The position numbers and the translations under genes were made by a program. This document shows, one piece after another, positions 27,265-38,047 of a DNA stretch of 38,789 bases. Within the stretch, counting starts at the first letter, position 1, and every line of letters starts with the position of its first letter. Origin of the DNA: Lachnospiraceae bacterium. Lineage in GTDB: Bacteria > Bacillota > Clostridia > Lachnospirales > Lachnospiraceae. A model generated the notes under the pieces. It searched no databases. It worked only from the letters and a program-made list of their open reading frames with translations, and was not told the DNA's origin. The DNA is taken from contig JAFLTB010000009.1 of assembly GCA_022510605.1 (NCBI GenBank), forward strand, positions 1 to 38,789, read 5' to 3'.

Positions 27265-27501
27265 ATGAATATTGAGATAGAACGTGAAAAATTAGTTCTT
27301 TTTACTAAAGTAGGGGCCATTGTGTTGTCCTCGATTGCTCTGCTGGCTGTGAGCTGGTTAGTTTATCCCCAATCTGCCGAAACCCTGAGCGGTTCCATTA
27401 TCCATCAAAAGGAGCTGCCGATTTATTGTGTGGAGCAGGAAAAACCTTTGATTTCTATCAGCTTTGACGCTGCATGGGGGAATGGTAGAGATGGACTATA
27501 A
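27265..27501 (+). pseudogene. 5' fragment of a PdaB-like sporulation polysaccharide deacetylase, cut by the mobile element
   Basis: 78 residues are readable. A membrane anchor (about 15-35) is followed by the start of the NodB deacetylase domain: LPIYCVEQEKPLISISFDAAWGN, the usual beginning of clostridial PdaB-type proteins. After WGN the frame enters foreign sequence (GRDGL, stop at 27499-27501), which overlaps the end of the recombinase gene by 6 bases. About 170 further residues with the metal-binding His and catalytic motifs are missing. In Bacillus PdaB is needed for stable spores. The remaining part of the gene should lie at the other end of the element, outside the window. Alone the fragment cannot be active. 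Confidence 0.82.
27479..27501. other. Predicted left junction (att site) of the integrated element
   Basis: Homology to the deacetylase ends after the codons for AAWGN, and the recombinase stop codon is at 27496-27498, so the crossover must lie within about 20 bases. The exact core dinucleotide cannot be set without the other junction. Confidence 0.55.
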
Positions 27502-29037
27502 GAATTTGAACTTAAATATTATGTCGATACTGAGTTCATCGTCTTTGTCGGTTACTATGATTTTATCCAGAACCTCCCCCACAATCTCCCTGTCCAGCTT
27601 CTCTATATTTCTGTACCTGATAAGGGTTTCAATCCAGCGGTTCATTTCGTCGTCCCCGTTGTTAAGCGAGGCAGTTATAAATTCAATCTGGCCTTTGATG
27701 AACTCCTCTTCCTTTGCATAATCGGATTTGTATTGCAGGTATTCTTCTTTTGTCAGGATTCCCTCCCGGTAGTCTTCGTACAGGGATTTTTTCATGCGGT
27801 TGTTTTTTCCCAGGGAGATTTCATATCTTTTCAAATCGGCCGTCTGACGGTTTTGCTTTGCTGCCTCCGGCACTCTGATTGTATCTATTTTCTTTATCTG
27901 CTCATTTAGTTTCTCCAGAACCAGTTTTTCCAGAAAATCTGCTTTTACAGCATTTCGCCTGCAGGTTCCTCCCCCATACCTCTTATAAGTCCCACATATA
28001 TAAGTGGTGGTTGTCCGGCTTTTATACTGATTCATAATTTTAGTCATGGCCCGTCCACAGCTGCCACAGAATATATATCCGGCAAATACCCCGACATTTT
28101 GCCGAAAATCCGGCTGTCTTGTATTCCGCTTTAGCAGTTCCTGGGTCATTTTCCATGTCCCCGCATCAATAACCGGCTCATGGGTCCCCGCCACCTTAAT
28201 CCAGTCTGCCAGTTCATTCTTTTTTGCCTTTCCCCGCACGGTGCGCCGTATCGACTTGTTCTGAACCATATTCCCGGCATACATTTCATTGTGCAATATA
28301 GTATTTACGGTACTGTATGTCCAATATTTTGTCAATTCCATTTTTTGTCCATTGGTATAGTTCAGTCCACTGAGCCTTTTATATTCAGAGGGGCAGGGAA
28401 TACTTTCATCATTTAACACTCTGGCAATGGATATTTTTCCGTAACCATTATTATATAGCGAAAATATCCGCCGGACGACGGGCGCCGCCGCCTCATCCAC
28501 CACCAGCCGGTGCCTGTCCTGCGGGTCTTTCATGTAGCCATAGCAGGCAAATGCCCCCACAAATTTTCCTTCGCTTTGAAGGCTCCGGAAGGAGCTTTTT
28601 ACTTTACGGCTTATATCTTTACTGTATTGAGCATTAAAGATATTTTTTATCGGCATGATAAAATCATCGTTGCTGGTGACACGGATGCTGTCGTACCCAT
28701 CATTGATTGCAACAAATCGGATATTTCTCGCAGGGAAATAGTTTTCCAGATATTCTCCCACACCAATATACTCCCGGCCAAACCGGGATAAATCTTTCAC
28801 TATGATACAGTTTATATTGCCAGCGTCCGCCTGGCAAATCATGTCCTTAAACCTTGGCCGGTTGAAATTTGTACCCGTGCAGCCGTCGTCCACATATTCT
28901 CCCACAACCCTGCCATCCGGGATGCTTTGCTGAATATAGTTAGAAATCAAAAGACGCTGGGAGCCTATACTGTCACTTTCCTCTTTGTCCCCATCCTCTT
29001 TTGATAATCGCAGATATATGGCGATTTCCCAGTTCAT
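27496..29037 (-). CDS. Large serine recombinase (integrase/excisionase of the island)
   Basis: 513 residues. The N-terminal resolvase domain has the nucleophile Ser12 (YLRLSKED), IGSQRLLI, DDGCTGTNFNRPRF and KDLSRFGRE. The Recombinase domain follows, then a zinc ribbon near 320-365 (IFCGSCGRAM ... YICGTYKRYGGGTC) and a coiled-coil region. This is the TndX/phiC31-type layout, integrating and excising by att-site exchange. It lies at the very edge of the element and reads toward the interrupted deacetylase gene, the normal placement. Its base composition is close to the host's, unlike the cargo. The start overlaps the preceding small ORF as ATGA. Confidence 0.95.
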   Translation of the reverse strand: MNWEIAIYLRLSKEDGDKEESDSIGSQRLLISNYIQQSIPDGRVVGEYVDDGCTGTNFNRPRFKDMICQADAGNINCIIVKDLSRFGREYIGVGEYLENYFPARNIRFVAINDGYDSIRVTSNDDFIMPIKNIFNAQYSKDISRKVKSSFRSLQSEGKFVGAFACYGYMKDPQDRHRLVVDEAAAPVVRRIFSLYNNGYGKISIARVLNDESIPCPSEYKRLSGLNYTNGQKMELTKYWTYSTVNTILHNEMYAGNMVQNKSIRRTVRGKAKKNELADWIKVAGTHEPVIDAGTWKMTQELLKRNTRQPDFRQNVGVFAGYIFCGSCGRAMTKIMNQYKSRTTTTYICGTYKRYGGGTCRRNAVKADFLEKLVLEKLNEQIKKIDTIRVPEAAKQNRQTADLKRYEISLGKNNRMKKSLYEDYREGILTKEEYLQYKSDYAKEEEFIKGQIEFITASLNNGDDEMNRWIETLIRYRNIEKLDREIVGEVLDKIIVTDKDDELSIDIIFKFKFL

Positions 29038-29150
29038 TGTTGAGGCCCCTTTTGCATGTGGACTGTTATTAGATTTGCGAGCGCTTCTTTTAATTCTTTT
29101 TCGCCCGTACTGGAATATACGACCTTTGTTTTTTTCTCCTTTTTATTCAT
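29034..29150 (-). CDS. Small ORF coupled to the recombinase
   Basis: 38 residues (MNKKEKKTKVVYSS...), Lys-rich, ending 4 bases inside the recombinase gene (ATGA overlap). A longer reading to 29300 exists, but its first part is Pro/Asn/Thr-rich with no ribosome-binding site. A GGGG lies 4 bases before the chosen ATG. Small ORFs in this place are common beside clostridial serine recombinases. Function is unknown; it may only couple translation. Confidence 0.45.
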   Translation of the reverse strand: MNKKEKKTKVVYSSTGEKELKEALANLITVHMQKGPQQ

Positions 29151-29191
29151 AATGCCCCATTGGTTTTTGCTTTTAGTAAATTCTATGAGGC

Positions 29192-29223
29192 GGGTTGGTG
29201 GGGTATGAGTGGGATTTGGGGGG
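29192..29223 (+). other. G-quadruplex-capable tract
   Basis: Four runs of three or more G (29192-29194, 29200-29203, 29211-29213, 29218-29223) have loops of 5, 6-7 and 4 bases, satisfying the G3+N1-7 rule; a further G7 lies at 29238-29244. It sits just upstream of the small ORF and recombinase, so on their mRNA it would be C-rich; the G-rich strand is the template. The rest of 29151-29460 is A+T-rich without a recognisable gene or terminator. Confidence 0.5.
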
Positions 29224-29460
29224 TAGGTTTTAATGTTGGGGGGGATGCCATCAGCCAGTCTTTTGGCGTGGATAGAGTATAGATTACTCATATTATACAT
29301 TATTTTTTAGAGCATTTTAAAATATGAGAACTAAAGGGAAATTTTCCAAGAACTTAATCAGTTTAATTTTGTGTGGCATGTTAATCTCTCTCCCAGTTTC
29401 CCCAACATATAAGTGTCCCCTCTACAATTGAAATAGGTGGAAAGTATACACTGATTACAC

Positions 29461-30468
29461 CTACAATAATGGCTGAATATACGGAATATTTGATGCCTTT
29501 ACTACAACATTTTTCAACCAGTATTTACTTTGACAAAAGCGTCTAATCTGCTCCACTTTTCTTTCCCTATCATATGTAGGTGCAACAGTAATTTCCTCAA
29601 TAGGCAATTTCCCCTTACACAACACACTAATAGGACCTCTCCAATTAGTTCTTTCCTGAAAACATTCAACATGATTTAACATCTCAAAATATTTTGCTTC
29701 CTGATCATATCCTTCTTCAATCCAAATTGGTTCCCTATCATTTGATAATTCCATTATTTTTTCATTGTCATATTGACTAATATCTGTTGTGCATGCGCCT
29801 TTCATTTTTCCCATATTCCCATGCTTAATCACTATGTAAGGAACTTTAACCCCATCCGGCAAAGTTCGAAAACGAATGCATTTTGATAATAATCCAGCTC
29901 TATTTGAAAAAATCATACGCATTTCTCGTTCTTCTCGGAAATGCCCATTTTTCAAATAAGGTAACATATCTTCTAACAAGATTTCGGACGCATATCCACA
30001 GCTATTAATATCATTTTTCATATGCGCTCTAACTTGTTCAGGATTATCTTTCTGATTTAAATAGATTACCGGCAAAGGTGTATTTTCATATATAATATAA
30101 TTACCTGAAGTCTCATAATCTGCATGTAAAATACTGTATTCTTGTGTATAATTTAAATTTAATTTAATTGCTACACCCCCATTATGGCAATAACCTCTCC
30201 ATTGGCTTAACATATCGTTTTCTGAGCAAAAACATATGATATAATCATCTCTGTTTTCTAAACCATCCAGTTTAAGCATCCTTTCTTCCGTTGCATCATT
30301 AGAAAATCGAACATTAGAAGCCCAAAAGGTATCTCCATCCAGAATCGCAAATGCTGAATTTATTGATGTATAGTGAATAAATTTGCCTTCAAGCGGATTA
30401 TCTTCGTCTAATCGCTCCATATATTTTTTAATAATCTCCCATTTCCAATTATAGATAGAATCTTTCAT
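29461..30468 (-). CDS. DUF2971-type protein, third gene of the candidate defence operon
   Basis: 335 residues, soluble. The N-terminal part carries the DUF2971 pattern: FIHYTSINSAFAIL, FWASNVRFSNDATEE, CFCSENDMLSQWRGYCHNGGVAIKLN, and a later REEREMRMIF. The biochemical function of this family is unknown to me; it is often seen in accessory regions. It is the last gene of an operon with the receiver-like and GHKL-PRTase proteins, 26 bases after the former, with GGAGG upstream. It may be an effector or sensor, which is inference. A+T-rich, unlike the host genes. Confidence 0.75.
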   Translation of the reverse strand: MKDSIYNWKWEIIKKYMERLDEDNPLEGKFIHYTSINSAFAILDGDTFWASNVRFSNDATEERMLKLDGLENRDDYIICFCSENDMLSQWRGYCHNGGVAIKLNLNYTQEYSILHADYETSGNYIIYENTPLPVIYLNQKDNPEQVRAHMKNDINSCGYASEILLEDMLPYLKNGHFREEREMRMIFSNRAGLLSKCIRFRTLPDGVKVPYIVIKHGNMGKMKGACTTDISQYDNEKIMELSNDREPIWIEEGYDQEAKYFEMLNHVECFQERTNWRGPISVLCKGKLPIEEITVAPTYDRERKVEQIRRFCQSKYWLKNVVVKASNIPYIQPLL

Positions 30469-30494
30469 ACTTTCACCTCCGATTCTTTAGTCGA

Positions 30495-31271
30495 TTATTT
30501 CTCAGATTCCAACAATTGTTTCACCTCTGATACAACAATTTCGCTACCTTTACGCAAAAACTCTTTCCTTTCATATATTTTGATATCCGACAATGTTTTG
30601 TCTAATCTTTCTTCTACAGTATAATACTTGAAATAAGCTGCTTTCCAATTTTCAACAAAATTAATTTCCCCGGCTTCTGAAGAGTATAAAAAGCATTTAA
30701 ATTTTCTTGCACTTAACTGATTATACAATTCCATAGAAATAACCCTTTGTACATTATTTATTCGTTGGATATCCCCATGCAAGAGCGATATATCAATACC
30801 TATAACTGCCCCTGTTGCAATATTCATTCGATTGATTAATTTATTCACCTGAACTTTTGCCACTTTCCTCACCTCATCTGTCTCCATATCATCACCTGAC
30901 TCTTCCCATATTTTTCTAATATTATTATATTCTTCTATATCCTCATGATTATCCCTCTTTAGCAAAAACAAAACAGAATTCTCAACAAGTCCCTTATTCT
31001 TACGATATATTGGCCTATTTATATCTGGTCCATCCAATCTACGGCAACGTTCCATATATAAGTGATAAAAAGAATCATACTTCTCATCTTGATCTTGTAA
31101 AGAATGTAACTCATTTTTACTACTTTCTAAACAAGCATCTCCAAATATTACAATATTGGAACGAACTTTATCTGTAGTTTGCGAGTCTAGTTTCCATAGT
31201 TTTAATATTACACCCTGTATAATGTAAAACATCTGTGCAAAATCATCATCAATCCAGTAAATTTGTTTCAT
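30495..31271 (-). CDS. Receiver-like protein with a large insertion
   Basis: 258 residues from the ATG at 31271, preceded by GGGAGGG. It begins KQIYWIDDDF, the acidic Asp8-Asp10 cluster of response-regulator receivers. A hydrophobic strand with a candidate phosphoacceptor comes only at Asp160 (VIGIDISLLHGD), followed by FLYSSEAG (Ser197/198) and AAYFKYY (Lys215), in the order D-D-D, D, S/T, K of a receiver. About 100 extra charged residues separate strands 1 and 3. No DNA-binding domain is seen. It starts 2 bases after the stop of the GHKL-PRTase gene, so the two are translated together and probably interact. The fold assignment is by eye. Confidence 0.65.
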   Translation of the reverse strand: MKQIYWIDDDFAQMFYIIQGVILKLWKLDSQTTDKVRSNIVIFGDACLESSKNELHSLQDQDEKYDSFYHLYMERCRRLDGPDINRPIYRKNKGLVENSVLFLLKRDNHEDIEEYNNIRKIWEESGDDMETDEVRKVAKVQVNKLINRMNIATGAVIGIDISLLHGDIQRINNVQRVISMELYNQLSARKFKCFLYSSEAGEINFVENWKAAYFKYYTVEERLDKTLSDIKIYERKEFLRKGSEIVVSEVKQLLESEK

Positions 31272-31273
31272 TA

Positions 31274-34200
31274 TTAACCCTCCCTTTTCAATACTGGTAA
31301 ACAATTTTCAAAATAATATTGTTTTTCTCCTTTTTCGCCTTCTTCGCACTTATAACGAAATACACATTCTATACCATATTCCACACCTAGATTCTCTATG
31401 TATCGCTTTATTGCCAGCAAGGACATATGCCCATCTGCAAAATCCAATGGATCTTGCAGACGATGTTCGATTGATTCATTCTTCTTTTCCCAATCATCCA
31501 TTCGATATACTTGGGTATTCACAGAATTACAGACAATCAAATAATCAATCCCTTCGTAAGGAGATTTTTCCCTGTACAGCATAACCGTGCATTTTTCTTT
31601 TTTTAACCGCTCATACAACTCTCTTAATTCTCTATCTTTCATCATCCATGAATATTCAGGTAATTCATACTCTTTTAGTGTGCTTTTAATTTCCAGCAGT
31701 CTATCTATTCTTAAGAGAAAATCGGGTCGTGTAGACTCGTATTTTATTGCAGAAATTAGCATATCAATCAGTATACATCGAAAATACTCCAGATTATAAT
31801 ATTCTCCCTGTTTACCCTGAATAAAAACAGCATTCTCCAACGATTCCTCATACCGTAACTCAATAACTTCATTCAATAATTCCAGTCTTCTATCCCAAGA
31901 ATTTGAAAGCATATTTTTCAAATTAAAATCTGAAAAACATCTTAATATACATTTAAAAGGATTCGGCTGCAAATACTGTATGTTTTGCGGAATATATAGC
32001 ATAGGACTATCCGTACTTCCATTTTTTTCTTCATGAAAATCATTAAAACTCCGATTAAAAATCTTAGCAATTTGACCATTTGTATAATTCCGTAAAAGAA
32101 GCCAATCTTTTGCCTTTTCCATATTTATCTGTTCATAATCCTTTTTAAATTTTTCTTTATCCTGAAAAACTTCCAACGTAATCATGTCATCTGCTGTCGT
32201 ATTGTGGCTATGCGCCTTTTCATGAGATAGAATATTCTGTTCCCCATTTTTTCTGGCATAGCGCGCATAAAGATCGCCCGCAAAATCTTTTTGCAAACAG
32301 CGCAAAATACGATTTCTATAAGTCATAACTTCGCGCAGGATCAATCGCAAGATAAACTTTGTCCTCCCGTCAAGTCCTTGTTTTGCTATGCTAATATACA
32401 AAAACACCCTAGCAATATGCTGCTCCCAGTTCATTTCTTTTTCTGTTATCCCCGCTTTTGGATTATCAAAAAACGCAATCACATATGGGCGCTGTATTTC
32501 CTCCTGTCCCAGATCCTCATCCAAAAAATATCCATTACCTTCCAGATCAAATAGTTCACTACTAGACAAGGCATCCACCACTCGTTGTTTTATACAATAT
32601 TTGGTTTCAGGCAAGCCAATTTTGCAGGAATTTAGTTTTTCTTCTACAATATCCATCGCTTGAATATATGTGCTATTTTCATCCCCATTCATTGTCTCCG
32701 TAAGTAATGCGATATTAACATCTCTAACATGATACTTATCGCAGATAACTCCTACTATATGATTTAACAATTGTTGATACCACTTGTTAACTGACTTAAC
32801 GACAAAATGATTTCCTTTATTCTTTGAGGTGCGCAAAAAATCAAATAATATTTCTTCTTTTTTAGTATTATATACCTCACTCCTTTTTGAGTCCATAAAA
32901 GGATTTTTGAATTGTGTCAAACAATACATTTGGCGCCAGTATTCATTAAAATTTTTATCTTCATTTATAATTACATCCTTGGTTTCTTTAACCTTTTCTT
33001 CCAAATTATCAAAATTGATACCCGTGTTTTGCAAAAATAAATTATGACAAAATTGGTAAAAAATTTTATCTGCCACCTTTACCTCAGCATTCCCTGTTAT
33101 TTTCGTATAAAGAAATACGGGGGTAAATGTTTCTTCTTTACATTCCTTATCAAACTCTTGATACTCCTCTCCTGTCATATACAAGTACTCCAACCATAAT
33201 TCTTTGGTCTCATCTGTATTGTTTGAAACCAGTCGATGGATATTTGCCTCATATGAATTCCAGAAATCCATCTGTTCTTTCATATCTAAGTTATTTCTCA
33301 AATCACTTACATAAAGATATGTTTTTTGTAATGTTTGCTTCCTCATTACATAAGTACTCCCCATATCAGTTAAACCTTCCAGAATATACCTCTGGAAAAA
33401 TTCCAGCTCACTTATTTTTTTCTCATAAAGGTTACTCTTTATTAATTTTACCAGTATTTCTGTATTTTCCAATCGCAACCCTTCTTTTTCAAACAGGTAA
33501 GAAATATTTCCTTTCTTTTCCAAGCATTTTGGCACAACTTTATTTTTATCCATTCCCATAAACAATTCAGCCAAAAGAATAAAAAATGTGTAAAATTGCC
33601 TTTTTATGGTAAAATCATAAGAAAAAAATGGTCTACATATAGTTTTAAATAATGCTTGAATGCCCAATATCCCCTTATTCTGTAATAAAAGTTTTTCAAA
33701 TCCATACGCATTTCCAAATTGAATATCTTTATTCCTTATAAGCCAGCCAGCTACATTCAGAACAACATCGTATGCTTCTCCCAGTTTGCTGCAACGTCCT
33801 TGTTTGACCATAATATTTTGCATAACATGAGAAAAAGCTAGCATATAATAAGATTTTTTCTTACTAATTTGGGAAATTTTGCTTCGGTTATCATACTCTT
33901 TTTTCTTATAATCTTTAATTTTTTCTGACCAATGGTGTGCCATATTTCGAGTTGCACTTCTTTTGAACATTCTTCTTGCATCTTGCTCTAACTTACAACC
34001 AATACAAGAATCTCCATGTGTGCGTGTATTTGACACATCTATATGCAAAAATGACAGAAAATTGTTTTCTGGATTACTTACATACATTTTTTTTGTATCA
34101 CTTGACAGCCTATCTACCAAAAGGAAAATTTTACAAAAAAGATTTGTAGGATATGTGTTGGTAGGTATCAAAGACTGAAGAAGCCCATTGGCTTTTTCAA

Positions 34201-37200
34201 ATGTTTCTCCAGTTATAATCGTATCATCGACAAAATAAAATTTTACAGGACAATTTCCTTCTTCACTGTTATCTAAATATAATCTATCAATCATTTGCTT
34301 AAGAACTGCATGCTCACACACAAAATTGCTCCTAAATTGTTTATCAACATTGATCGATACAATTTCCGCAAGTCCTTTAAAATAATGTGTATTGACATAC
34401 TGGGCAAATCCAACATTTGTATTGTGTTCTGGCGAAAAAATAATATGCAGAATTGGATCGACGTTATCTTCATCCAAATCGTCCTCCAAGCCTCTCAACC
34501 AATTTTTTACATAATTTTTTACTTTATAAAAATACTTTTGTGTATCAATATAAAACTGATAGTGATTCTGTCTACGACATATATGATCATAAGAAACACA
34601 ATCTGCAAGTTCTATAAAGCGCTCACAGAAAGCTTTTCCTATAGCCTTTGGTTTTTGTAGTATATAATTTTTATAACGAATCTGCTGTGTAGGCACTGTT
34701 GATGTAGCATCTGTTTCAACTAAAGGTACTTCATCTATTACATATTTGGGATAACACACTTCACACTTTAAAGGATCATGCCAAATTACTTTTGATCTTA
34801 TAAAAAAGTTAATAACCGGATTATCTGCTGATTTCAGTGTTGTTAGTTTAGTTACTATTTCGCATTCTATTACAATCTCCCAGTACTTTTCCTCTATACT
34901 AGACGGATAACCAACTATTAACTTGTTACTTCTTTCCTGTCTATTTACAACATCCTGATACTTCTTTTCTATATCCGAAAGATACACTTCCTTCTGGCAC
35001 CCTCTGGTATCTACAACCCAAAAAACTGTATAATTTTCTACCAAAGATATTTTTTCCTTTGTAGAAACAGAACTTTCAAATTTTTTCCACATTTTTTCAA
35101 AAGTAGTCAAAGTGGAACTAATAGGTACAATTTGCACAATCTTCGTATTTTCATTTAAAATTAAGCGATTATTATCATCAACCCTCCCCAAAAAATTATC
35201 TTTCTGAAGTCCAAAATACATCTGGGTTTCCTCTGACTCCAACATCAAATTATGCTGAAAGGAAGCAAAAGCCACATATTGTTCCTTATTAGATTTATTG
35301 ACTATCCTGTATTCCTGCAGAATCTCTGTTATCGAAGTCAAAATCGCTTTAGAATATGAAGCATATCCATAAAACAAAATTGGTGTAGTTAATAAATCAA
35401 TTTCCTTGCTTACTTCGGCTCTTTTTAGCAAATGACGCAAAATTATAAACGCAAGGCGATTTGCTATAGTTGTCCGGTAAAACAAAAAAGACATTTCATA
35501 AAAAGATTCAATATGCACTTTACTGCCTAACCGCATATGTGTGTCCTTAAGTTTATATCCAACTATTTCTTCATCCAGAGAGCCTTCAGCCATTTTCTTT
35601 AACTGTCTTTCAAAGAAACATCTTGAATCGTCATCGCTACATCCTAATATAACATCAAACGGCATAGCCCCGACTACGCCATTTTCTTTTTTACTATTTC
35701 CCACAAGAAAATCTTTTGGAATCAGAAATGACTTCAATTCTGCCGCCCTCTTACAGTCCCCTTTGTCAAATCCATCAACCCCCTGTTCCATAGAAAGCAC
35801 ATAAGAATTTGATATTGCTTGCGAAAAATCATCTCCAAGCATAATAACTCTTTTTATTTGCCCATTTTTTTTGCAATTTTCCTGAAGGCATAACTGAAGT
35901 TTTGATGGAAAACTCTTAACGCTAAGTAAAATACAAATCCGGCGAAAAGAATCAATAAAGCCATCCGGCAAATTCGTCATGGCTAGATAACAATTTACTC
36001 CCTTTTCTCGAATTACTTCTAAAGCCCCAATAATACCCTTTAAGCAAACTTCTATTCGGTCATAATCTTTAAAATAAGTAATATCAACTGCCTGACTAAA
36101 GTCATAATTGATTACATATTTTGAGAAAATACCATTTTTTTGTCTCATTATGTGTTCAGAAAGTTGCTCCTCAAATTTTTCTTCCCAGTACCTAGTCCAC
36201 AGTTGAACAAGAACATATTTCTTCCGTGCGTCCAGAACGGAATTCCCAGAACCGCCAATTGTATTTGCATTTACTGTTACAGGAACATTTATTCGTCGTT
36301 CTTTGTATTCAAGAAATGTTGCAAAACTTTTATAATTTTCTGCTACATGATTTCTCTGCCTCAACTGACTGATTCCACGCCTCCGTTGATTCCCCAATGC
36401 GCCAACAGGTACGAGTATGGAAAACTGTGTCCCAGGAATCACACATTTTTCTTTCTCCTGCATCATCTGTGCTAAAGAATTTGATGCTCCTTCTGCATAA
36501 GACTTATAGTAAAATCTTTTTTCATCCGTCAGAATACTTTGCTTACTACTAATTACTTTTACAGCCGCATTACATCTCCCTGCCACCTGCGCAAATTGTC
36601 CTAAACCAACATGAGCTATCAAATCATTTTTTCTAAAAAGCATCCAACTGTGAATTGGATCATCTACCTCATACTCCGAAAAAAAGTTGCGAATAGCCAA
36701 ACGTTTTCGCTCTTTTATAATTGCTATATGGCCAGGTAATACAGAAGAATTTTCCAGAATCTTCCTCTGCTCTTCTATTTCGTATTGAAGATTTGCAACG
36801 AAATTATCAATCATATCTTCTTGTTCATTAATATCTGATATAATAACTTCTAGCGCTTCATCTCTTCCGTTAGGAGCAAATACAACTTCAGGAAATCTAG
36901 CTGCTATCCTTTCATAAAACATGTTTTTCTCTTCCTTTTTCCCTTTTACATGAAGATAGAAAGCCAAAAAACATTCTTGGCTTTGAGTATGCTGCAGGGA
37001 ATTTTGCACAATTTGTCTTAACCCTTGAGAAAGTTCCTTTGCTATTTGCCAAATATCCTCATACGAATATAGGTCGATTTCCTCTATAGTTTTCTGCTCT
37101 GAAAGCATAAATGCAAATAATGAGAAATGCATCAAGCACATTTCTCCATGTGTTTTAAGAAAATGCTGAATTTTTTGCTTGTTTTGCTCCCAGCTTTCCA

Positions 37201-38047
37201 AAAAAGAACCCACAACACTTCTAATTCGCTTTACATCCGTCTCTGCAATGTAATCTTTCATAGCAATATTCGGATTATCTGAACCAGCATTTCTAAAACG
37301 CTTATTGCTCCTTAAAGAAAATAACTCCTCTAGGTCATCATTAATTGGATGCACAAATAACTGGTTATACTTTTGATTGTCAATCAAAAGCAGTGGAAAA
37401 AAAGTTTTCTTCTGTTTGCTGTGGTAAAAGTCCAAACTTGTAACAACTGGTCCACTAGCACTTTGTTTTACACCATATATCACTCCAGTATATCGTTTTG
37501 AAAGTAGCCGAAGATACTGAGAAGTGAAATCATAAGTGTCATAATCTATGTTCCCATGAACATCTTCAAAAGGAAATTTTGTTCCCGTTAATGGAACCAT
37601 AAATACAGTAAGTCTGCGTTTTATCCCTTCCTTTTTAAACGTTATAGGCTCTACATACTTTAGCAACATTGCCAAATACTGCAAATTTATAATTTCTCCA
37701 CCAATACCGTAATCATCCTGCCCATTAAAATGGATACGTAGATGATATGTAATGCTATTTTTTTTTGAAAGCAACTTATGTTTATCACTATCAGCAAAAG
37801 AATGTTTATCTTGCACAGAGACGTTTGCCCTTTTCCCTCTCTCCGACATATCAATTGGTTCTTCTATATATCTTGGTGAAAATCCGGCCTGTGTATATCC
37901 AATTTGAATAGGAAGTTTTAAGACAATTTGGGCTAACTGTTCCATTCGATTATGCGTAGTTTCACATTCCACTGTCTTAATAAAATCTAGACACTTTGCA
38001 TAATCTTCTTGCTGATTTTTAAGTTCAATTATACAAATTGTATTCAT
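31274..38047 (-). CDS. Giant GHKL ATPase / PRTase-like / GHKL-like multidomain protein
   Basis: 2257 residues, no signal peptide or membrane segment. N-terminal GHKL ATPase-like domain: N-box LRQIVQNSLQHT with Asn349, Asp405 in IISDINE, GLGQF at 481-485 and PGTQFSILVPV at 538-548. A PRPP-binding-loop-like motif FYFVDDTIITGETF has Asp1274/Asp1275; CEVC (1095-1098) and CIGC (1348-1351) flank it and may bind zinc. The C-terminal end resembles a second, degenerate GHKL domain: ILIDMLISAIKY with Ser2099 in place of Asn, YLIVCNSV, DGHMSLLAIKRYIENLG (from 2205) and YYFENCLPVL. First gene of a three-gene operon; AAGGAGA precedes the ATG. Strongly A+T-rich. Signalling or defence role is inferred. Confidence 0.75.
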   Translation of the reverse strand: MNTICIIELKNQQEDYAKCLDFIKTVECETTHNRMEQLAQIVLKLPIQIGYTQAGFSPRYIEEPIDMSERGKRANVSVQDKHSFADSDKHKLLSKKNSITYHLRIHFNGQDDYGIGGEIINLQYLAMLLKYVEPITFKKEGIKRRLTVFMVPLTGTKFPFEDVHGNIDYDTYDFTSQYLRLLSKRYTGVIYGVKQSASGPVVTSLDFYHSKQKKTFFPLLLIDNQKYNQLFVHPINDDLEELFSLRSNKRFRNAGSDNPNIAMKDYIAETDVKRIRSVVGSFLESWEQNKQKIQHFLKTHGEMCLMHFSLFAFMLSEQKTIEEIDLYSYEDIWQIAKELSQGLRQIVQNSLQHTQSQECFLAFYLHVKGKKEEKNMFYERIAARFPEVVFAPNGRDEALEVIISDINEQEDMIDNFVANLQYEIEEQRKILENSSVLPGHIAIIKERKRLAIRNFFSEYEVDDPIHSWMLFRKNDLIAHVGLGQFAQVAGRCNAAVKVISSKQSILTDEKRFYYKSYAEGASNSLAQMMQEKEKCVIPGTQFSILVPVGALGNQRRRGISQLRQRNHVAENYKSFATFLEYKERRINVPVTVNANTIGGSGNSVLDARKKYVLVQLWTRYWEEKFEEQLSEHIMRQKNGIFSKYVINYDFSQAVDITYFKDYDRIEVCLKGIIGALEVIREKGVNCYLAMTNLPDGFIDSFRRICILLSVKSFPSKLQLCLQENCKKNGQIKRVIMLGDDFSQAISNSYVLSMEQGVDGFDKGDCKRAAELKSFLIPKDFLVGNSKKENGVVGAMPFDVILGCSDDDSRCFFERQLKKMAEGSLDEEIVGYKLKDTHMRLGSKVHIESFYEMSFLFYRTTIANRLAFIILRHLLKRAEVSKEIDLLTTPILFYGYASYSKAILTSITEILQEYRIVNKSNKEQYVAFASFQHNLMLESEETQMYFGLQKDNFLGRVDDNNRLILNENTKIVQIVPISSTLTTFEKMWKKFESSVSTKEKISLVENYTVFWVVDTRGCQKEVYLSDIEKKYQDVVNRQERSNKLIVGYPSSIEEKYWEIVIECEIVTKLTTLKSADNPVINFFIRSKVIWHDPLKCEVCYPKYVIDEVPLVETDATSTVPTQQIRYKNYILQKPKAIGKAFCERFIELADCVSYDHICRRQNHYQFYIDTQKYFYKVKNYVKNWLRGLEDDLDEDNVDPILHIIFSPEHNTNVGFAQYVNTHYFKGLAEIVSINVDKQFRSNFVCEHAVLKQMIDRLYLDNSEEGNCPVKFYFVDDTIITGETFEKANGLLQSLIPTNTYPTNLFCKIFLLVDRLSSDTKKMYVSNPENNFLSFLHIDVSNTRTHGDSCIGCKLEQDARRMFKRSATRNMAHHWSEKIKDYKKKEYDNRSKISQISKKKSYYMLAFSHVMQNIMVKQGRCSKLGEAYDVVLNVAGWLIRNKDIQFGNAYGFEKLLLQNKGILGIQALFKTICRPFFSYDFTIKRQFYTFFILLAELFMGMDKNKVVPKCLEKKGNISYLFEKEGLRLENTEILVKLIKSNLYEKKISELEFFQRYILEGLTDMGSTYVMRKQTLQKTYLYVSDLRNNLDMKEQMDFWNSYEANIHRLVSNNTDETKELWLEYLYMTGEEYQEFDKECKEETFTPVFLYTKITGNAEVKVADKIFYQFCHNLFLQNTGINFDNLEEKVKETKDVIINEDKNFNEYWRQMYCLTQFKNPFMDSKRSEVYNTKKEEILFDFLRTSKNKGNHFVVKSVNKWYQQLLNHIVGVICDKYHVRDVNIALLTETMNGDENSTYIQAMDIVEEKLNSCKIGLPETKYCIKQRVVDALSSSELFDLEGNGYFLDEDLGQEEIQRPYVIAFFDNPKAGITEKEMNWEQHIARVFLYISIAKQGLDGRTKFILRLILREVMTYRNRILRCLQKDFAGDLYARYARKNGEQNILSHEKAHSHNTTADDMITLEVFQDKEKFKKDYEQINMEKAKDWLLLRNYTNGQIAKIFNRSFNDFHEEKNGSTDSPMLYIPQNIQYLQPNPFKCILRCFSDFNLKNMLSNSWDRRLELLNEVIELRYEESLENAVFIQGKQGEYYNLEYFRCILIDMLISAIKYESTRPDFLLRIDRLLEIKSTLKEYELPEYSWMMKDRELRELYERLKKEKCTVMLYREKSPYEGIDYLIVCNSVNTQVYRMDDWEKKNESIEHRLQDPLDFADGHMSLLAIKRYIENLGVEYGIECVFRYKCEEGEKGEKQYYFENCLPVLKREG

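Follow-up and report, generated by a model that had tools for sequence, protein, structure and literature searches.

A conserved three-gene unit on a recombinase element of a Lachnospiraceae bacterium encodes a giant GHKL-phosphoribosyltransferase protein, a receiver-like protein and a predicted ADP-ribosyltransferase

A stretch of 38,789 nucleotides from a Lachnospiraceae bacterium of the gut (contig JAFLTB010000009.1 of assembly GCA_022510605.1, positions 1 to 38,789; hereafter the window) carries three minus-strand genes, separated by 2 and 26 bases and encoding in order a giant protein, a receiver-like protein and a DUF2971 protein (Table 1), which form a conserved unit. The set genuinely exists and recurs, and it is unnamed so far as the searched libraries and papers can show. 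The giant consists of a GHKL ATPase domain, two phosphoribosyltransferase (PRTase)-type domains and, as weaker sequence matches suggest, a kinase-like C-terminus. We give about an even chance to the reading that this is an apparently horizontally spread signalling-and-effector system, most likely directed against phages or other invading DNA; the defence role is one that we infer from the composition, mobility, patchiness and company of the genes.

The conservation of the unit was assessed in a pattern scan of a named genome collection, which gave 50 loci, six of them contigs already found in a search of the family. The receiver-like gene and then the DUF2971 gene lie 3' of the giant in 43 of these (L036 and L044 being assigned by manual reading), whilst two loci stop at a contig end and five have neither partner. 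The tight spacing and the co-occurrence of all three genes, the first reported and the second put forward as a check by an earlier sequence-only reading of the window, are thereby both borne out. When neighbours were clustered by blastp, DUF2971 again came out in 43 loci; no further gene was constant across the 50, the most widespread cluster after DUF2971 and the receivers reaching 8/50. In all 43 loci with both partners these are separate genes. Since the three open reading frames (ORFs) have full-length homologues with the same neighbours, they are not chance ORFs. The giant was matched in 8/299 genomes of the family (counting its own and one weak match) and 2/398 phylum genomes (own included), and is also present in Bacteroides, Spirochaetaceae and Bifidobacteriaceae; the G227 match (E 3e-4, a 260-amino acid (aa) frame) was discarded, not being a giant. 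Searches of phage and plasmid collections returned no giant, and 0/4 candidates from a pattern scan of viral contigs were confirmed. Giants are split into pieces at L044, L066, L067 and L072, some of which may be assembly errors; at L044 (7997-17506, Sporofaciens musculi) the giant lies in several ORFs and a gene that by eye is transposase-like stands between it and the receiver gene.

Library searches recognised little of the unit: DUF2971 in gene 3 (6.1e-6) is the sole Pfam match within it, all three genes are without a recognised family in NCBIfam and PADLOC, and the matches of the giant and the receiver-like gene in Pfam, NCBIfam and PADLOC were at chance level (in one case among the best 25 of 39 families). 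The N-terminal GHKL domain aligned with the HATPase_c set with an hhalign probability of 96.5 (E 7.7e-10), and among aligned giants the HATPase residues are intact at N349 (42/45), D405 (41/45) and G481 (42/45). The sequence-only reading had combined GHKL-like domains with a single PRTase motif, VDDTIITGET; both signals were found, but there are two PRTase domains and not one. The giant has the fold of a type I phosphoribosyltransferase, the structure-match list taking in the first of these domains only, whilst the GHKL domain and the second PRTase were assigned by sequence comparison. The acids of the phosphoribosyl pyrophosphate (PRPP)-binding motif are absent from the first domain and present in the second (D1274 45/45, D1275 39/45, with G1280 45/45), which matched the Pribosyltran set with an hhalign probability of 34 (E 4.2e-4) and whose best PDB sequence match was an amidophosphoribosyltransferase (E 0.17). 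Further PDB sequence searches gave no usable match for the middle-region profile and one chance match for the GHKL profile. Two invariant CxxC pairs may together form a metal site.

At the C-terminus, an HATPase-like domain was suggested by hhalign (probability 56, E 1.1e-4) and by the PDB sequence matches of its profile, 6/8 of which were histidine kinases (E 0.15-0.17); upstream of it lies the candidate phosphoacceptor H1948, conserved in 40/40 sequences of a separate alignment. This C-terminal profile scored >30 bits in 43/43 giants with both partners and found nothing in the five partnerless or two cut loci, a test that is partly circular because most of the 43 loci had gone into making the profile. 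The five partnerless giants (L064, L065, L066 second ORF, L069 and L073) instead end in a metallophosphoesterase, seen as a Pfam match (3.9e-11) in the one giant scanned and as motifs in the other four. Output and partners thus change together; going by these profiles and motifs, a sister branch has a metallophosphoesterase in place of the kinase-like C-terminus, the receiver-like protein and the DUF2971 protein. A phosphoesterase flag at L040 proved to be a different protein, a separate one of 1054 aa upstream of the giant (L040:3577-6741) with phosphoesterase-like motifs (GNHD).

The second gene, which had been described as having the residue order of a receiver domain, keeps that description. 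It has E/D at position 8 (40/42), D9 (40/42), D160 (41/42) and S/T at 197-198, consistent with the acidic pair and phosphoacceptor Asp of a receiver, and a receiver Lys (PK or SK) is visible by eye in some members when every second alignment row is inspected, the window copy not being aligned there. Against receivers of its own genome the profile gave an hhalign probability of 36 (E 3.9e-4) over only 19 columns. Its eight PDB sequence matches were weak; six are named response regulator, one of these a fusion, and the best is by name a designed protein. The plasmid collection held no match for this protein.

In the DUF2971 protein E180, E182 and R184 are invariant (E180 and E182 in an alignment of 40), and the predicted model has a strand at 182-187, which would put a catalytic Glu, presumably one of these two, where a core strand begins. 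An ADP-ribosyltransferase-like fold with putative NAD-dependent transfer is predicted, although at E<=0.001 Foldseek alone matched it to nothing in PDB or a viral library and a PDB sequence search with the profile gave no usable match. On the strength of this predicted fold DUF2971 is a likelier effector than the PRTases; of the earlier proposal that either or both act as effector, the DUF2971 half is favoured and the PRTases fall in the sensor part. Relatives of the DUF2971 protein occur in 104 plasmid records, matching at most part of its length, and a streptococcal satellite phage has a distant relative as one of its end genes. On the At plasmid of Agrobacterium C58 (L133, NC_003064.2 18384-21335) qatC and qatD are followed 25 bases on by a DUF2971 gene.

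In the mechanism we propose, the GHKL and PRTase part of the giant would sense infection, perhaps through altered levels of PRPP or nucleotides, and the signal would reach the C-terminal part with its invariant His1948 and from there the conserved Asp of the receiver protein, which would release or activate the DUF2971 enzyme. The latter would then ADP-ribosylate nucleic acid or protein, so that growth or replication stops, whilst in the sister branch the fused metallophosphoesterase would stand in for kinase-like end, relay and transferase. A bolder form of this proposal, which we regard as possible though doubtful, is a new immune class in which a giant ATPase uses one catalytic and one degenerate PRTase to watch nucleotide metabolism (PRPP or bases) for signs of infection, a phosphorelay licenses DUF2971 ADP-ribosyltransferases and the sister branch swaps this output for a metallophosphoesterase.

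Unlike in a standard kinase, the C-terminal HATPase-like domain by our assignment keeps the N-box Asn in 20/41 giants and has Asn in place of the G1 Asp in 40/41, and is probably degenerate. The N-terminal GHKL domain may therefore be what handles ATP, or phosphate may not be what the relay passes on. Such a domain would suit a toxin-antitoxin-like unit, in which DUF2971 acts as an ADP-ribosyltransferase toxin that is always present, the receiver-like protein either inhibits it directly or serves as a cRec-type enzyme processing ADP-ribose or cyclic phosphate, and the giant regulates the pair with no phosphorelay. cRec proteins (PMC7824862; PMC9503650) are receiver relatives with two catalytic Asp linked to ADP-ribose enzymes, much as a divergent receiver with paired Asp stands here beside an ADP-ribose-type enzyme, and that the two partners are both present or both missing in the uncut giant loci also fits. 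The same sources report cRec never with a histidine kinase; 43 loci here have a kinase-like giant (its kinase activity putative). Against the alternative, the receiver-like gene is confined to loci whose giant carries the kinase-like C-terminus and invariant His1948, and most PDB matches of the receiver profile, albeit not the best, are named response regulator. We hold this alternative to be rather unlikely.

Housekeeping proteins often contain PRTases and kinase-like modules, and the unit could be an operon for host stress responses or developmental signalling (such as nucleotide-pool or sporulation control) that happens to travel on a mobile element. The insertion of the window's element in a sporulation-type deacetylase gene, and the sugar-nucleotide and surface-polysaccharide-type genes flanking several loci, speak for this; the rare and patchy occurrence, the split copies (some perhaps assembly errors) and the presence in Bacteroides, Spirochaetaceae and Bifidobacteriaceae, which are not known to make endospores, speak against it. 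Such a role seems unlikely. Improbable, in turn, is a selfish stabilisation or superinfection-exclusion module that protects the mobile element and not the host: the operon does ride on a recombinase element and the satellite phage relative is suggestive, but recombinases do not accompany the unit consistently, Resolvase matching 3/147 flanking proteins scanned (of 186 listed).

Detocs is a two-component-like anti-phage system of kinase-like sensor, receiver domain and toxic output, and the operon is predicted to have the same three parts. It differs in its giant with GHKL and two PRTases, in its predicted ADP-ribosyltransferase effector and in having receiver and effector on separate genes in 43 loci, where DtcC joins them on one polypeptide. 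PADLOC found no match for the operon, its 2023 library being of uncertain coverage for Detocs. From DarT of DarTG and other ADP-ribosyltransferases the DUF2971 protein differs in having no sequence match in PDB and in its partner, which is receiver-like and not a macrodomain antitoxin such as DarG. Ter systems with PRTases (PMC7824862) share the conflict setting, but here the PRTases belong to one protein with the GHKL and kinase-like parts; Ter-type genes were not among the constant partners in the neighbour clustering, in which Ter genes were not searched by name. The DS-8 NACHT-metallophosphatase defence protein (PMC13092281) resembles the sister branch in joining a sensor to a metallophosphatase, with NACHT where that giant has GHKL and PRTases; the legend of Fig. 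6F there has HATPase and REC among the abbreviations of predicted systems, one of which may be related. When grounds for rejecting the sequence-only reading were looked for, GHKL and PRTase signals were present, the partners conserved and an existing name absent from the searched libraries and papers. Its domains, partner, co-occurrence and mobile setting are supported, the second PRTase and the sister branch are additions to it, and anti-invader activity and phosphotransfer remain putative.

The mobile setting is an 18.9-kb serine-recombinase element running from 27475 past the window end to 46408 of the contig, which agrees with the recombinase island first suggested. The contig of 50,449 bases contains its 10-bp direct repeat in only two exact copies, both on the same strand, with one at each end of a split PdaB-like polysaccharide deacetylase gene. 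That gene is intact in 5/5 genus relatives fetched, chosen for matching the left piece, and the deacetylases of the two relatives scanned had PdaB as best NCBIfam model (203 and 206 bits, under the 237-bit cut-off). The element thus has a border recombinase, repeats at both ends and a split target gene, as a gene-intervening element does. The elements gin (in gerE), skin and yin similarly lie inside sporulation-type genes; the serine recombinase here is in keeping with them, whilst the target here is PdaB-like and developmental excision, by analogy, is possible but putative. The element has a G+C content of 34.5%, its left flank 48.9% and its right flank 41.2%; G+C in 1-kb windows is 31-36% over 29-38 kb vs 42-56% in the 29 kb before, confirming an A+T-rich block beside host genes. 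Because an N run of 100 bases (38790-38889) lies inside the element, its right half rests on scaffolding. An insertion sequence next door, also claimed earlier, was not confirmed by family search; the sequence beyond 38.4 kb, next to the N run, resembles part of a transposase gene.

Table 1. Coordinates of features in the window.
Feature	Position	Strand	Remarks
5' piece of interrupted PdaB-like polysaccharide deacetylase gene	27265..27484	+	split by element
Left copy of 10-bp direct repeat	27475..27484	.	right copy at contig 46408, outside window
Large serine recombinase of element	27496..29037	-	513 aa; Pfam Recombinase 8.5e-22, Resolvase 5.9e-17
ORF adjoining recombinase	29034..29300	-	88 aa; from ORF list
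DUF2971 protein, predicted ADP-ribosyltransferase effector	29461..30468	-	335 aa
Receiver-like relay protein	30495..31271	-	258 aa counted from ATG; ORF list starts at upstream TTG, 31304
Giant sensor/kinase-like protein	31274..38047	-	2257 aa
C-terminal HATPase-like domain	31277..31810	-	aa about 2080-2257
H1948, invariant His, candidate phosphoacceptor	32204..32206	-	41/41 aligned giants without phosphoesterase
Second phosphoribosyltransferase domain	33923..34630	-	aa about 1140-1375
CxxC pair C1348/C1351	33995..34006	-	45/45 aligned giants
PRPP-binding motif VDDTIITGET	34202..34231	-	aa 1273-1282
CxxC pair C1095/C1098	34754..34765	-	45/45 aligned giants
First phosphoribosyltransferase-fold domain	34772..35653	-	aa about 799-1092; PRPP loop VPISSTLTT without acids
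N-terminal GHKL ATPase domain	36398..37150	-	aa about 300-550; N349, D405, G481

Elsewhere on the element, the 88-aa ORF had no confident match in Pfam, PADLOC or NCBIfam, and a 231-aa cargo protein (L016:10826-11518) none in Pfam or NCBIfam at the limits used, its FDFDI stretch being reminiscent of nucleotidyltransferases; the right half (L016:11861-15767) encodes two proteins with Big_2 domains, and PA-IIL lectin gave a single weak match there. Rfam gave no match in the window at gathering scores. Around the other loci, PADLOC gave strict matches to LmuA, LmuB, HEC-01A, HEC-01B, AbiD, PDC-S20 and MTase_II, one protein each, among 147 flanking proteins (best 25 of 163 families), and ten flanking proteins scanned singly gave three matches at 1e-20 (LmuA, LmuB, MTase_II); as the flank scan had no background, enrichment of defence genes is not claimed. 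The sugar-nucleotide and polysaccharide-type genes mentioned above recur in the flanks of L040, L041, L053, L057 and others (a cluster in 8/50 loci; Epimerase in 9/147 flanking proteins) and perhaps mark an integration hotspot.

The prediction gives DUF2971, a widespread Pfam domain of unknown function, a testable function in ADP-ribosylation, and the two branches offer a natural output swap, transferase vs phosphoesterase, on one sensor. If the PRTases are infection sensors, bacterial detection of phage takeover via nucleotide metabolism would become directly testable.
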